A model generated the notes under the pieces. It had not been told where the DNA came from. It did no database searches and saw nothing but the letters and a program-made list of their open reading frames with translations. DNA of 64,000 nt, taken from assembly GCF_040436405.1 (NCBI RefSeq), contig NZ_AP031575.1, forward strand, positions 3,661,501 through 3,725,500, written 5' to 3'. This document shows positions 10,136 to 59,116 of the stretch, in pieces (position 1 is the stretch's first letter; every line of letters begins with the position of its first letter). Origin of the DNA: Marinomonas sp. THO17. Lineage in GTDB: Bacteria; Pseudomonadota; Gammaproteobacteria; Pseudomonadales; Marinomonadaceae. A program made the translations under genes and the position numbers.

Positions 10136-10230
10136 TAACTCTTATGATTTCGATAAGTTAGATATATTTTATTGATCTTTTGCTCAGGCGTATAGTGGCC
10201 TTATTATCTCAGTTGCCTTGGGAGAGGACG

Positions 10231-11433
10231 GTGATCGAAGTTGGCACTAAAAAGTTTTGGCGTGGCACCCTAGCCTTAATGATTGGTTCTTTCATGATTT
10301 TTGCCAATGTTTATGTCACACAGCCTTTGCTTCCTATGATCGCGGATGAGTTTGCTGTTTCAGCTCTGCAAGCCAGCGCAAGCTTTACCATTACCACATT
10401 AACCTTAGGGATCTCTCTTTTGTTTTATGGACCTATCTCCGACGCATTAGGCCGTAAGGGGATTATGGTCATGACCATGCTAGGCATTACTTTAACCACT
10501 GCTTGTCTCGCTTTGGTTCAGCAATATGAATACCTACTGCTATTACGTGCTTTACAAGGCTTTTTTCTTGCGGGTTTACCTGCTATTGCCGTGGCTTATT
10601 TGGGGGACGAATACTCGTCTGAAGCTTTAATGGTGGCTGTGGGTCTGTATATCAGCGGGAATACTTTGGGTGGTATTGGTGGTCGATTAATTGGTGGATT
10701 TGCCGGTGAATGGTTAGGCTATACTGCTACCTTTGCTGTAATGGCGGCAATCAGTTTCATTTGTTTGCTGATATTTTATGTCTTGTTGCCCGCGTCACAA
10801 CATTTTCAACCAAATCCACTTAGACTGGGTGAGATTTTGTCTAACATGAAAAGGCATTTGTTGAATCGTCGACTGATTACCTGTTATTTGATTGGTGGAT
10901 TGAGCTTTTTCATTTTTATTAATCAGTACAGCTACGTTACCTTCGTGCTGGAAGCCGCTCCTTATCACTTATCGGCTAAATATATCGGTTTGCTGTTTTT
11001 AACCTATTTGTCTGGCACAGTGGGTTCGGCCATGTCCGGAAAATTGGCAAAGCGTTGGCCGCAGGCTCATATCATGATGTTGGGCACTGGCATTTTTATG
11101 CTGGGGTCTTGTGTGACGTTAGGTGAGAGTTTATGGCTCATTATTCTGGGATTATTGATCAACAGTTTTGGTTTTTTCTTATGTCATTCCACTGCCAGTA
11201 GCTTTGTGAGTCGACATGCGAAACAGGCAAAAGCCAGTGCATCCTCCTTGTATCTGGTGTTTTATTATCTAGGGGCAAGTTCGGGTGGTTTTTATTTGGA
11301 TCCTTTCTGGCAAATGAACGGATGGACTGGTGTGATTTTTGGCTCTTGGATTATCCTAGGTATTGTATTGATGGCACAATTGAGTCTGTTGAGATACCAA
11401 GCAAAATCATCACAACCTCTTGCAAAACTTTAA
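10231..11433 (+). CDS. ynfM: MFS transporter, YnfM family
   Basis: 400-residue major facilitator with about 12 membrane helices. The segment QPLLPMIADEF in the first loop and GPISDALGRKG in the helix 2-3 loop are typical of the YnfM/arabinose-type drug efflux branch. I chose GTG 10231 because GGAGAGGA lies just upstream; an in-frame TTG at 10180 would add 17 residues and runs into the lysR promoter region. The substrate is unknown. It is probably regulated by the divergent LysR protein. Confidence 0.88.
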   Translation: MIEVGTKKFWRGTLALMIGSFMIFANVYVTQPLLPMIADEFAVSALQASASFTITTLTLGISLLFYGPISDALGRKGIMVMTMLGITLTTACLALVQQYEYLLLLRALQGFFLAGLPAIAVAYLGDEYSSEALMVAVGLYISGNTLGGIGGRLIGGFAGEWLGYTATFAVMAAISFICLLIFYVLLPASQHFQPNPLRLGEILSNMKRHLLNRRLITCYLIGGLSFFIFINQYSYVTFVLEAAPYHLSAKYIGLLFLTYLSGTVGSAMSGKLAKRWPQAHIMMLGTGIFMLGSCVTLGESLWLIILGLLINSFGFFLCHSTASSFVSRHAKQAKASASSLYLVFYYLGASSGGFYLDPFWQMNGWTGVIFGSWIILGIVLMAQLSLLRYQAKSSQPLAKL

Positions 11434-11492
11434 GGATAAAAAGGAAGCGTAGACTGACAACTCGCTCAGCCATTTGAAGTTGGCAGTTATCC
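11433..11492 (+). other. Imperfect hairpin after ynfM-like gene
   Basis: GGATAA and ACTGACAACT pair with AGTTGGCAGT and TTATCC across about 60 bases, with one mismatch in the inner 10-bp stem. No T run follows. It may be the 3' end structure of the MFS transcript. Confidence 0.4.
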
Positions 11493-11504
11493 TAAAAGAC
11501 ACGC

Positions 11505-11532
11505 ATAAAAAAAGCCCTGCAGAGCAGGGCTT
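11505..11532 (-). terminator. Minus-strand terminator, probably for ppsA
   Basis: AAGCCCTGC-AGA-GCAGGGCTT is a perfect 9-bp stem. The uninterrupted T run lies on the minus strand (A run at 11507-11513 on the plus strand), so it stops leftward transcription. The only leftward gene upstream is ppsA, about 400 bp away, with the MITE in between. Confidence 0.8.
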
Positions 11533-11576
11533 AAAACGAGAGTTGTGACAACAATAAGGCCACGAGCCGTGATTAA

Positions 11577-11839
11577 GGAAGGTACGAACAAGTCCACTGA
11601 CTTCAGCGTGTGGATAACTCTCTTTTATTCGAGGCAAGTTTCGCTGTCCAATATAAGCATATTGGCAAGAAGCTTAACAAAGAATAAAGAGAGCTTAACC
11701 CACGCCCTTCGGGTCTTTCAGAGAAACGGCCTCTCTGTGTTAAGAGTGATTGAAAGGTATTAACATTCCTGCTCACTCTTGCCTTGATAGGCCATTTCTC
11801 TGATAAGACTGATGTTCAGAAGACTTATTCGCACCTTCC
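11577..11839. mobile_element. Non-autonomous IS5-family MITE (263 bp)
   Basis: The ends are inverted repeats: GGAAGGTACGAACAAGTC at 11577 and, on the other strand from 11839, GGAAGGTGCGAATAAGTC. The second form matches the end sequence I remember for E. coli IS5. Flanking tetramers are TTAA on the left and TTGA on the right, a near match to the YTAR target duplication of IS5. The interior has no transposase but is strongly folded: AAGAGTGA (11742) pairs with TCACTCTT (11773), and CTTAACCCA pairs with TGTGTTAAG. Short open frames inside look like chance. Related pieces lie at 59034 and 9189. Confidence 0.85.
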
Positions 11840-11856
11840 TTGAAACGGCAATCTGA

Positions 11857-11878
11857 CTTAGTAGGTATCCCTACTAAG
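11857..11878. repeat. Perfect hairpin downstream of ppsA (distal)
   Basis: CTTAGTAGG-TATC-CCTACTAAG, a 9-bp perfect stem with a four-base loop, between the MITE and the ppsA stop. No T run on either strand. Possibly a 3'-end mRNA structure. Confidence 0.6.
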
Positions 11879-11889
11879 ATGCAGTCGGA

Positions 11890-11918
11890 ATCTACCTTTT
11901 GTTTATTTTAAGGTAGAT
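11890..11918. repeat. Perfect hairpin downstream of ppsA (proximal)
   Basis: ATCTACCTT and AAGGTAGAT, 9-bp arms around an AT-rich 11-base loop, eight bases from the ppsA stop. Together with the neighbouring hairpin it makes a double stem-loop trailer for ppsA mRNA. Confidence 0.6.
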
Positions 11919-11925
11919 GGTTAAC

Positions 11926-14322
11926 TTATACCGCGTCTTGATTCAGAGACGCGTTTTCAATAACTTCATTTAGGTGTAGCCATGTTTCAACCACGGTATC
12001 TGGGTTGAGCGACACACTTTCGATGCCTTGCGCCACCAACCAGTCTGCAAAATCAGCATGATCGGAAGGTCCTTGACCACAAATGCCCACATATTTTCCT
12101 TGCCCGCGACAAGCGGAAATCGCCATTTTAAGCAGCTTTTTCACCGCAGGGTTGCGTTCATCAAACTTATCGGCGATCAGGCCAGAGTCACGATCTAGAC
12201 CCAGCGTCAGCTGTGTTAGATCGTTTGAGCCAATTGAGAAGCCGTCAAAGTATTCGAGGAATTCCTCTGCTAGCAAAGCATTTGAGGGCAGTTCACACAT
12301 CATGATGACTTTTAATCCATTTTCACCGCGGGCAAGACCTTGCTCAGCCAGGAGTTCGGTCACTTGTTGTGCTTCTTCAAGAGTACGAACAAAAGGAATC
12401 ATGATTTGTACGTTGGTCAGCCCCATCTCGTTACGAACACGACGAATGGCTTCACATTCAAGGGCAAAGCAGTCGCGGAATGAATCATCTATGTAGCGGG
12501 CTGCTCCGCGGAAGCCAAGCATTGGATTCTCTTCATCAGGTTCAAACTGAGGGCCGCCAATGAGGTTGTGATATTCGTTGGATTTGAAATCAGACAGACG
12601 CACTATGACTGGCTTTTGCGAGAAAGAGCAGGCCAGTGTGGCGACACCTTCTACGAGTTTATCGACATAGAACTCCACTGGACCTTGGTAGCCGGCAATA
12701 CGATGATCAATCTCTTCTTGCAATATGGCATCCATGTCCGTGTAGTTGAGTAGGGCCTTGGGGTGTATACCTATCATGCGGTTAATAATAAATTCCAAAC
12801 GAGCCAGACCAATACCAGCGTTTGGTAGCATAGCAAAGTCAAAAGCACGGTTTGGGTTGCCGACGTTCATCATGACTTTGACAGGCAGCTCTGGCATGTT
12901 ACCCACTTCAGAAGTGATCACATCAAAATTCAATTGGCCTTGGTAAACAAAGCCCATGTCACCTTGTGCGCAGGATACGGTTACTGGTTGATCATCCTTC
13001 AAAACTTCGGTGGCATCGCCACAACCTACCACAGCAGGAATGCCTAATTCACGAGCAATAATGGCCGCGTGACAAGTTCGGCCGCCACGATTCGTTACAA
13101 TGGCAGAGGCACGTTTCATGATGGGTTCCCAATCCGGGTCAGTGATGTCAGTGACCAACACATCACCCTGTTGGATGCGATCCATTTCAGTGATGGAAGA
13201 CAAAACTTTTACCGCCCCAGTACCTATTTTGTGGCCTATGGCACGTCCTGTGATCAATACATTTGAGGTCTCTTTTAGACTGTACCGCTCCATGCTTTGT
13301 GTATTGGCTTGGCTACGAACGGTTTCTGGGCGTGCTTGCACTATATAGAGTTTACCGTCGATGCCGTCTTTGGCCCATTCAATGTCCATTGGGCGTTGGT
13401 AATGTTGCTCGATAATGCAGGCTTGTCTGGCCAGATCTTCAATCTCTTCATTGCTTAAGGCGAAGCGGTTTTGATCATCAAGCTCCACTGGCACTATCTT
13501 AACGAATTCATCACTGCTTGCGGCGGCGTATTCCATTTTCTGGGCTTTGCTGCCTAAGCTTTTGCGCACGACCGCTGGACGCTTGGCGGCCAGAGTTGGC
13601 TTATGAACATAGTATTCGTCAGGGTTGACGGTACCTTGCACCACCATTTCGCCCAAACCGTAGGCGGCAGTAATGAATACCACTTCGTCGAATCCAGATT
13701 CAGTGTCCAAAGTGAACAGCACACCAGAAGCTCCTATGTCACTGCGTACCATTTTTTGAATGCCTGCAGATAAGGCCACACCTTGGTGTTCAAAACCTTG
13801 GTGAACGCGGTAAGAGATGGCTCGGTCATTAAACAAAGAGGCAAATACACGCTTGATCGAAGCTTTGATGTCAGCCAAACCTTTTACATTGAGGTAAGTT
13901 TCCTGCTGTCCAGCAAACGACGCGTCAGGTAAGTCTTCCGCCGTTGCGGAAGAACGCACAGCAAAGGAAGTATCTGTAGGATTGTCTTCGCACAGTTCAC
14001 TAAACGCCGCTTCAATCTCCTGATTGAATTGGTCGGAAAAAGGTGCGTCTTCGATCCAGTTACGAATTTTGACACCCGCTTCCGCTAATGCATGAACATC
14101 GTCTACGTCCAAGCTGTCTAATATGCTATGGATTTTCTCTTCTAAGCCGCTTTCTACCAAGAAAGTTTGATAGGCATAAGCAGTCGTAGCGAAACCGTTT
14201 GGTACTTGGATACCAAGGTCTGTCAGGTTGGAAATCATTTCTCCCAAAGAGGCGTTTTTACCGCCCACTTGGCCGACATCTTCTAAACGAAGATCTTTAA
14301 ACCACTTAATGAATTTGCTCAC
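11926..14322 (-). CDS. ppsA: Phosphoenolpyruvate synthase
   Basis: 798-residue enzyme that makes PEP from pyruvate and ATP for gluconeogenesis. The N-terminal ATP-grasp part begins [22 protein letters not shown]; the mobile phosphohistidine domain has [14 protein letters not shown] with the catalytic His near residue 418; the C-terminal PEP/pyruvate barrel ends in [17 protein letters not shown] with the catalytic Cys near residue 748. It is divergent from ppsR, whose product switches PpsA on and off by phosphorylating a Thr next to that His. A possible Cra-like site lies in the shared control region. Confidence 0.98.
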
Positions 14323-59028: not shown

Positions 59029-59033
59029 GGAAG

Positions 59034-59116
59034 CTATTAACATTCTTGCTCAATCTTGCCTTGATAGGCCATTTTACTAATAAGATTGATGTTCAGCAGA
59101 CTTATTCGCACCTTGC
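59034..59116 (-). repeat. Right half of the IS5-type MITE, reaching into recQ
   Basis: Reading the minus strand, these 83 bases match 11839-11757 of the intact element with about nine mismatches (for example AAGGTGCGAATAAGTCT and ATGGCCTATCAAGGCAAGA). The inner break falls in the loop of the element's internal hairpin. The outer end, with GCAAGG for GGAAGG, lies inside the recQ coding sequence. Confidence 0.85.

Follow-up and report, generated by a model that had tools for sequence, protein, structure and literature searches.

The 263-bp sequence located at 11577..11839 (+ strand) of the window, by which we mean the whole 64,000-nucleotide stretch of Marinomonas sp. THO17 DNA that was analysed, is an IS5-type MITE, a short element without transposase and with 16-bp terminal inverted repeats. 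Its assignment as the two-arm full-length form of sublineage A is backed by further copies in the same genome and by an empty site in relatives. The reading that we consider probable, at about 80%, is that this is a Marinomonas MITE mobilised by IS5 and built of hairpin modules, with a fold on which selection acts in spreading copies and not in each insertion. Bacterial MITEs are usually seen as shrunken IS elements, and their fold may affect neighbouring mRNAs. In this family two levels can be separated from the sequence, given that the fold is conserved between the spreading lineages and not in the inserted copies; a testable claim follows, namely that the inner fold of a MITE serves the MITE's own spread.

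Ends, interior and coding content

The left terminal inverted repeat, GGAAGGTACGAACAAG (11577..11592, + strand), is identical at 15 of 16 positions to the left end of IS5A from Escherichia coli K-12 (GGAAGGTGCGAACAAG), and the right one, GGAAGGTGCGAATAAG (11824..11839, - strand), coincides with the right end of IS5A at all 16; the CAAG/TAAG asymmetry between left and right is also common to both elements. No transposase gene is present within 11577-11839 according to the ORF listing, where the only ORFs of at least 60 aa overlapping the element are two of 72 and 75 aa, both crossing its left end. The IS5-type ends and the absence of transposase claimed in the original prediction are in this way borne out. 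An Rfam search of positions 11400-12000 of the window gave six matches up to E = 1, two of them within the element, and all were far under the gathering threshold.

The interior comprises two long interrupted hairpins on the + strand, arm H1 (11606..11705; helices 3-5 in the pair counts and also recovered in the folds) and arm H2 (11713..11809; helices 7-10), separated by a small central hairpin (11706..11712, + strand; helix 6). The interior hairpins had been predicted, and both strands do fold far beyond shuffled sequences (z = -9.1 for the + strand and -10.8 for the - strand, none of 200 shuffles being as good on either), in a structure that joins both element ends in one stem.

Genomic context of the window copy

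The element had been placed at the end of ppsA. It does adjoin the 3' side of the ORF 11926..14322 (- strand), which we take to be ppsA, encoding phosphoenolpyruvate synthase, but it actually begins 87 bp downstream of the stop codon and is situated between this gene and a convergent one (10180..11433, + strand), presumably coding for an MFS-type transporter. A terminator scan detected a likely intrinsic terminator of ppsA past the element (11512..11532, - strand), whose hairpin is kept together with an A-run in nine of the 15 loci from relatives (L192, L193, L196, L198, L201-L205). A weaker terminator-like hairpin on the ppsA strand directly follows the element (11572-11560), and another one, on the opposite strand, is found at 11932-11953, beyond the element as seen from the convergent gene; around the element, three such hairpins were found versus 0.6 expected. 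Transcripts that run from ppsA to its likely terminator would pass through the element, which is therefore probably transcribed together with the gene. This copy inserted into a TTAA between the gene and that likely terminator, and probably resides in the 3' untranslated region of ppsA.

At this locus the element interrupts what was a small hairpin, GCCGT...ACGGC (11566-11570 and 11845-11849), with the TTAA target in its loop; the hairpin is still intact in four of the relatives' loci (L196, L198, L202 and L204). A general preference for palindromic targets was rejected, since the 38 sites with exact duplication considered gave 59 symmetric matches versus 63 expected. As a raw count, 18 of 97 loci have the element inserted 2 bases within the 3' end of an ORF, where the YTAR target overlaps the stop codon.

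Target duplications and empty sites

The element is flanked on the left by TTAA (11573..11576) and on the right by TTGA (11840..11843), neither tetramer being assigned to a strand. These near-identical flanks had been pointed out in the original prediction, and the comparison with the empty site of the relative G004 refines them to an imperfect duplication of TTAA whose right copy is degraded. In both G004 and G009 the match to the left flank extends through 11576 and resumes in the right tetramer, at 11843 and 11841 respectively; the left- and right-flank matches overlap by 2 bases in G004 and 4 in G009. The G004 empty site reads GATTAAACGG, and the right side in the own genome, TTGAAACGG, is longer by one base. 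In agreement with this, the own genome shows five extra bases at the join when compared with L192 and L193, that is, the 4-base duplication plus one. Seven of the 15 relatives' loci align across the insertion point without the element (L192, L193, L196, L198, L201, L202 and L204); when compared with the joined flanks, five of the remaining loci gave one-sided matches and three gave no match.

Target duplications were scored in a sample from eleven genomes that comprised 67 copies with lengths of 250-266 bp; 39 of these have an exact duplication, 15 agree at three of the four positions and 13 at two or fewer. The exact duplications are TTAA in 18 cases, CTAG in 15, CTAA in three, TTAG in two and CTTG in one. 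The target tetramer of IS5 is YTAR, and the copies of the element show targets of this type, as is the case for the IS5 family.

Copies in Marinomonas

This MITE family has dozens of copies across Marinomonas. In the own genome, a single contig of 3.92 Mb, there are at least 48 matching stretches, at least 14 of them full length, these numbers being lower bounds that derive from scoring 40 of 71 candidates; a pattern of the ends, allowing up to two mismatches, gave 117 matches in this genome versus 4 for the reversed control. A B-type query found matches in 31 of 48 Marinomonas genomes, and the window copy used as query did so in 15 of 37 genomes with the own genome counted, one of the 15 not being a Marinomonas and giving just one weak match. 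An inner 22-mer scanned across named genomes was detected in 20 stretches, every one of them from Marinomonas. A search for plasmid copies of the element returned no match. Further copies and clean empty sites, on which the original prediction had made its reading depend, were thus both found, and together with the target duplications and the IS5-matching ends they sustain the identification as an IS5-type MITE. No account of this element was found in searches of openly licensed papers on Marinomonas, an absence that carries little weight.

The window carries a second, partial copy of 88 bp at 59029-59116, which corresponds to the last third of the element and lies between CTAA and TTAA. On the left it starts at an inner sequence similar to a terminal repeat (GGAAGCTATTAAC), and two fragments from the own genome (L025 and L030) start close to this inner point, which might act as a cryptic end.

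Conservation of the fold between sublineages

The fold was compared in three sublineages: A with 43 sequences including the window copy, B with 23, and C with 17, these from the genomes G055, G042 and G049. Alignment A1 was restricted to fetched copies of 250-266 bp, without longer or shorter forms; 67 were found and 66 were used after one exact duplicate was removed. For sublineage C, 17 distinct copies out of 18 loci were used, and G055 alone has 45 matches. The identity between consensus sequences is 75% for A-B, 65% for A-C and 72% for B-C.

The structure of the A consensus, computed with G-U pairs barred, has 95 pairs. When these are followed in B, 83 of 94 are still Watson-Crick and 16 are double compensations (null mean 2.4, maximum 8 in 5000 runs); in C, 79 of 94 are still Watson-Crick and 22 are double compensations (null mean 4.2, maximum 12 in 2000 runs). 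Between A and B, 27 of the A pairs differ, so the 16 double-compensated ones are 16 of 27. The other directions gave the same picture, with 16 double compensations from B to A (null mean 2.3, maximum 9), 12 from B to C (2.8, 8), 14 from C to A (3.0, 9) and, in the weakest comparison, 8 from C to B (1.5, 6). An independent count in the 66-row alignment found 91.8% of the cells paired and 35 pairs changed on both sides; in this alignment the covariation score was 0.193 versus 0.088 for shuffled alignments (none of 500 reaching it) and 0.037-0.072 for slid ones, and the number of further pair types exceeded that of shuffles less clearly (103 versus 95.8; 3 of 500). A tree-aware covariation analysis similar to R-scape yielded none of 36,856 column pairs with E < 0.05, in an underpowered setting dominated by the A/B split; this single deep split means that the paired changes stand for a small number of lineages rather than for numerous independent events. 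With G-U pairs barred, the C consensus shows a different fold for the inner part of H2. From these comparisons, the two-armed fold is largely kept by paired changes across the three sublineages, and the conserved interior fold that had been proposed finds its support in the compensated pairs among A, B and C.

A different result was obtained for changes private to individual copies, which amount to 0.46 per paired column versus 0.50 per unpaired column (p = 0.55), and which do not spare the loop motif described below (13 in 32 subfamily-columns). On the terminal branches Watson-Crick pairing is retained in 18 of 297 stem events; given that these branches are short, little compensation is to be expected there, and the telling part is the missing depletion in stems. 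Private changes that are equal in stems and loops, together with the compensation between A and B, suggest that inserted copies drift freely and that the lineage which makes new copies keeps the fold, so that selection would act on the copies that continue to spread.

Hairpin modules and the shared internal loop

The family is modular, with forms from 63 to about 360 bp that have IS5-type ends. The 63-bp form has no arm and shows exact target duplications in 3 of 3 cases; the form of 165-166 bp carries arm H1 alone (exact duplications in 2 of 5), and that of 198-210 bp carries arm H2 and an optional double hairpin of about 50 bp, module M3 (1 of 2). The 263-bp form includes H1 and H2, the 310-313 bp form has the same arms with one M3, and among the forms of 354-362 bp, L015-L017 have two M3 and L135 one enlarged insert. 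The interior is assembled from hairpin modules, i.e. two long arms with a common loop motif and the optional double hairpin. In the own genome M3 has 18 matches, 15 of them in or adjoining an element of the family and three apart as judged by coordinates, and it may occur as an independent repeat as well. M3-like stretches away from element ends are located at 1183682-1183718, 3004265-3004309 and 3809544-3809576 of the own genome.

The two arms have in common an internal loop in which GGC lies opposite AAC, and this loop is present in both arms of the three consensuses. In H1 the motif reads GAGGC (11631..11635, + strand; bases 55-59 counted from the left end), identified from the sequence and from the conservation of GGC, and it faces AACAAAG (11676..11682, + strand); in H2 it reads AAGGC (11781..11785, - strand; bases 55-59 counted from the right end) and faces AACACAG (11735..11741, - strand). 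The start of GGC is placed at similar distances from the two ends, 57/57 in A and in the window copy, 57/56 in B and 58/56 in C, and as a raw observation, with positions read from the consensuses, the motifs of H1 and H2 are on opposite strands. A kinship between H1 and H2 was considered and rejected, since the half-versus-half score of 52.5, higher than the 41 reached by the best of 300 shuffles, was due to the terminal repeats; without the first 30 bases of each half, between 419 and 560 of 1000 shuffles were as good, both for the window copy and for the consensus of each sublineage. The likeness of H1 and H2 is limited to the short loop motif only. A search for the IHF consensus with up to one mismatch found no site in the A consensus, the B consensus or L015, and one in a C copy. 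An assignment of the RNA strand by G-U asymmetry was dropped: the event counts (41 versus 23 in H1, 27 versus 55 in H2) pointed to opposite strands for the two arms, and per column the difference was 60 versus 45 (p = 0.17).

The transposase partner and the exchange of ends

In the proposed mechanism, a transposase of the IS5 subgroup would act in trans, cutting at the 16-bp ends and duplicating the YTAR tetramer. An autonomous IS5 partner was looked for in the same genome, where the search covered two families, and it was not found: DUF772 gave no match, and DDE_Tnp_1 gave one gene, near which there are only end look-alikes with up to 5 substitutions. IS5 relatives do occur elsewhere in the genus. 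DUF772 genes are present in 37 of 48 Marinomonas genomes, and InsH-like transposases from other Marinomonas reach 74% identity to E. coli InsH1 over 320 residues; eight of the 11 genomes without DUF772 have matches to the element (G000, G005, G011, G019, G040, G042, G049 and G058), although these are mostly draft assemblies. The nearest IS5 loci with two ends are L246 in Marinomonas G039 and L053 from another genus, each with 3 mismatches over the 32 end bases. No Marinomonas transposase flanked by the exact ends of the element was found among the IS5 loci examined, and therefore the mover is one that we infer; it would be a transposase of the IS5 subgroup, perhaps lost from the own genome. 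An origin of the element as a deletion derivative of a resident IS5 is not supported, the own genome having no DUF772 match, and the IS5 loci with recognisable ends (from 30 + 23 fetched) showed no likeness past the end repeat over 60 bases compared by eye. The genome G021 has 33 DUF772 matches, 11 of them with identical score, and one MITE match with both A-type and B-type queries.

The ends are not the same in all members of sublineage C. Most of the C-type copies examined in G055 end in GGAACCTGCGAATAAG and GGAACCTGCGATTAAG, mostly with GGAACCT, and this pair of ends used as a pattern with up to one mismatch gave 143 matches in G055 versus 0 for the control, GGAAGCT and GGAAACT variants among them. 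The C-type copies of G042 and G049 have ends that are mostly GGAAGGT. For IS5 itself, copies in G010 have one end GGAACCTGCGAATAAG; an IS5 with exactly the GGAACCTGCGAATAAG/GGAACCTGCGATTAAG ends was not found in G055, where the one fetched locus (L248) has GGAACAT ends. These observations provide a lead towards an exchange of the element ends to fit the resident IS5, and the occurrence of differing ends within one sublineage suggests a way for such elements to persist after their partner IS is lost. A more speculative extension, which we regard as doubtful for the moment, and slightly more so since H1 and H2 proved unlike each other past the first 30 bases, is that the interior would be a lasting modular nucleic-acid device selected at the level of the transposon, with the ends as exchangeable keys to whichever IS5 transposase is available.

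Possible roles of the fold

Most likely the fold would either aid transposition, by pairing of the ends in single-stranded DNA at a replication fork or as a site where a host protein binds the GGC/AAC loop, or help the source copy via its RNA. The 63-bp forms count against a role in transposition, given that their exact target duplications (3 of 3) indicate that the arms are not strictly required for movement. Against a selected fold stand the 39 columns that pair in the fold of A or of B but not in both, which are the least conserved class (17 of 39). The paired changes could also have arisen by mutation, if template switching in imperfect palindromes copied one strand of a stem onto the other. 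Long quasi-palindromes are known substrates for template switching, and this process would fit a compensation that is clear between sublineages and rare on the terminal branches (18 of 297); nonetheless, it should erase mismatched loops, and yet GGC/AAC persists in both arms of the three consensuses. Moreover, between A and B the unpaired columns are better conserved than the paired ones (42 of 48 versus 107 of 143), so that we consider this origin of the paired changes unlikely.

Two further explanations place the function of the fold in RNA. The idea that the element acts as an RNA element wherever it is inserted, raised in the original prediction, would make it a regulator of mRNA processing or stability, for instance behind ppsA, with the fold kept for the host. 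Its very stable fold on both strands and the position of the window copy between ppsA and the likely terminator are in line with this, and ERIC and NEMIS insertions are reported to change mRNA stability (PMC2229807, PMC10969869). Against it, stems are not depleted of private mutations, the G-U test was non-significant, relatives lack the element at the same site, and no orientation is favoured with respect to tandem genes (14 same and 15 opposite among all 29 scored copies). Gaps of every kind are used, the 67 full-length copies being distributed, according to a crude ORF finder, in tandem (26), divergent (15) and convergent (13) gaps, inside ORFs (11) and at an edge (2). A role of this kind at the insertion sites is not supported and appears very improbable, although it may apply to the window copy, which precedes the likely ppsA terminator. 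The conservation at the level of the source, with copies that are neutral, would also be compatible with source copies that produce a structured small RNA, with selection acting on that RNA on behalf of the element or of the host, in which case the dispersed copies would be dead offshoots; small RNAs derived from MITEs are reported for Coxiella (PMC10969869). Nevertheless, the common loop motif is on opposite strands in the two arms, the G-U test per column gave no strand (60 versus 45, p = 0.17), and the sole sigma-70-like site in the scanned region falls outside the element, which makes this explanation quite unlikely. A fold that is selected in the spreading copies, and that would serve transposition, continues to be the reading that we prefer.

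Comparison with known elements

IS5A is one of the closest known systems, having the same ends (15/16 and 16/16), the same left/right asymmetry and a YTAR-type 4-bp target; in contrast, the MITE has no transposase gene, and in the 40 bases of each end compared by eye there is no similarity past about base 19 on the left and base 16 on the right. Parts of the element design are common to BOX, NEMIS, CIR and ERIC. BOX of Streptococcus pneumoniae is also modular, its fixed ends enclosing hairpin units that may be absent or repeated, and it too has target duplications and a fold at the RNA level (PMC3049150); it differs in its host and in the absence of IS5-type ends, whereas the arms of the Marinomonas element have a common loop motif on opposite strands. 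The Correia/NEMIS elements of Neisseria likewise have TIRs, and the presence or absence of an internal block of about 50 bp sets their size classes apart; that block includes an IHF site (PMC2229807), whereas with up to one mismatch no such site was found in L015 or in the consensuses of A and B, and one was found in a C copy. CIR, from Caulobacter and Brucella, resembles the element in its two hairpin arms and linker, but is listed without TIR and has no IS5 ends (PMC2229807). ERIC is dispersed, folded and has TA at its termini, as the element does (PMC2229807, PMC10969869); it is shorter, is listed with a 7-bp TIR and has no IS5 ends (PMC2229807), and an RNA-level effect is reported for it behind genes (PMC10969869, PMC2229807).
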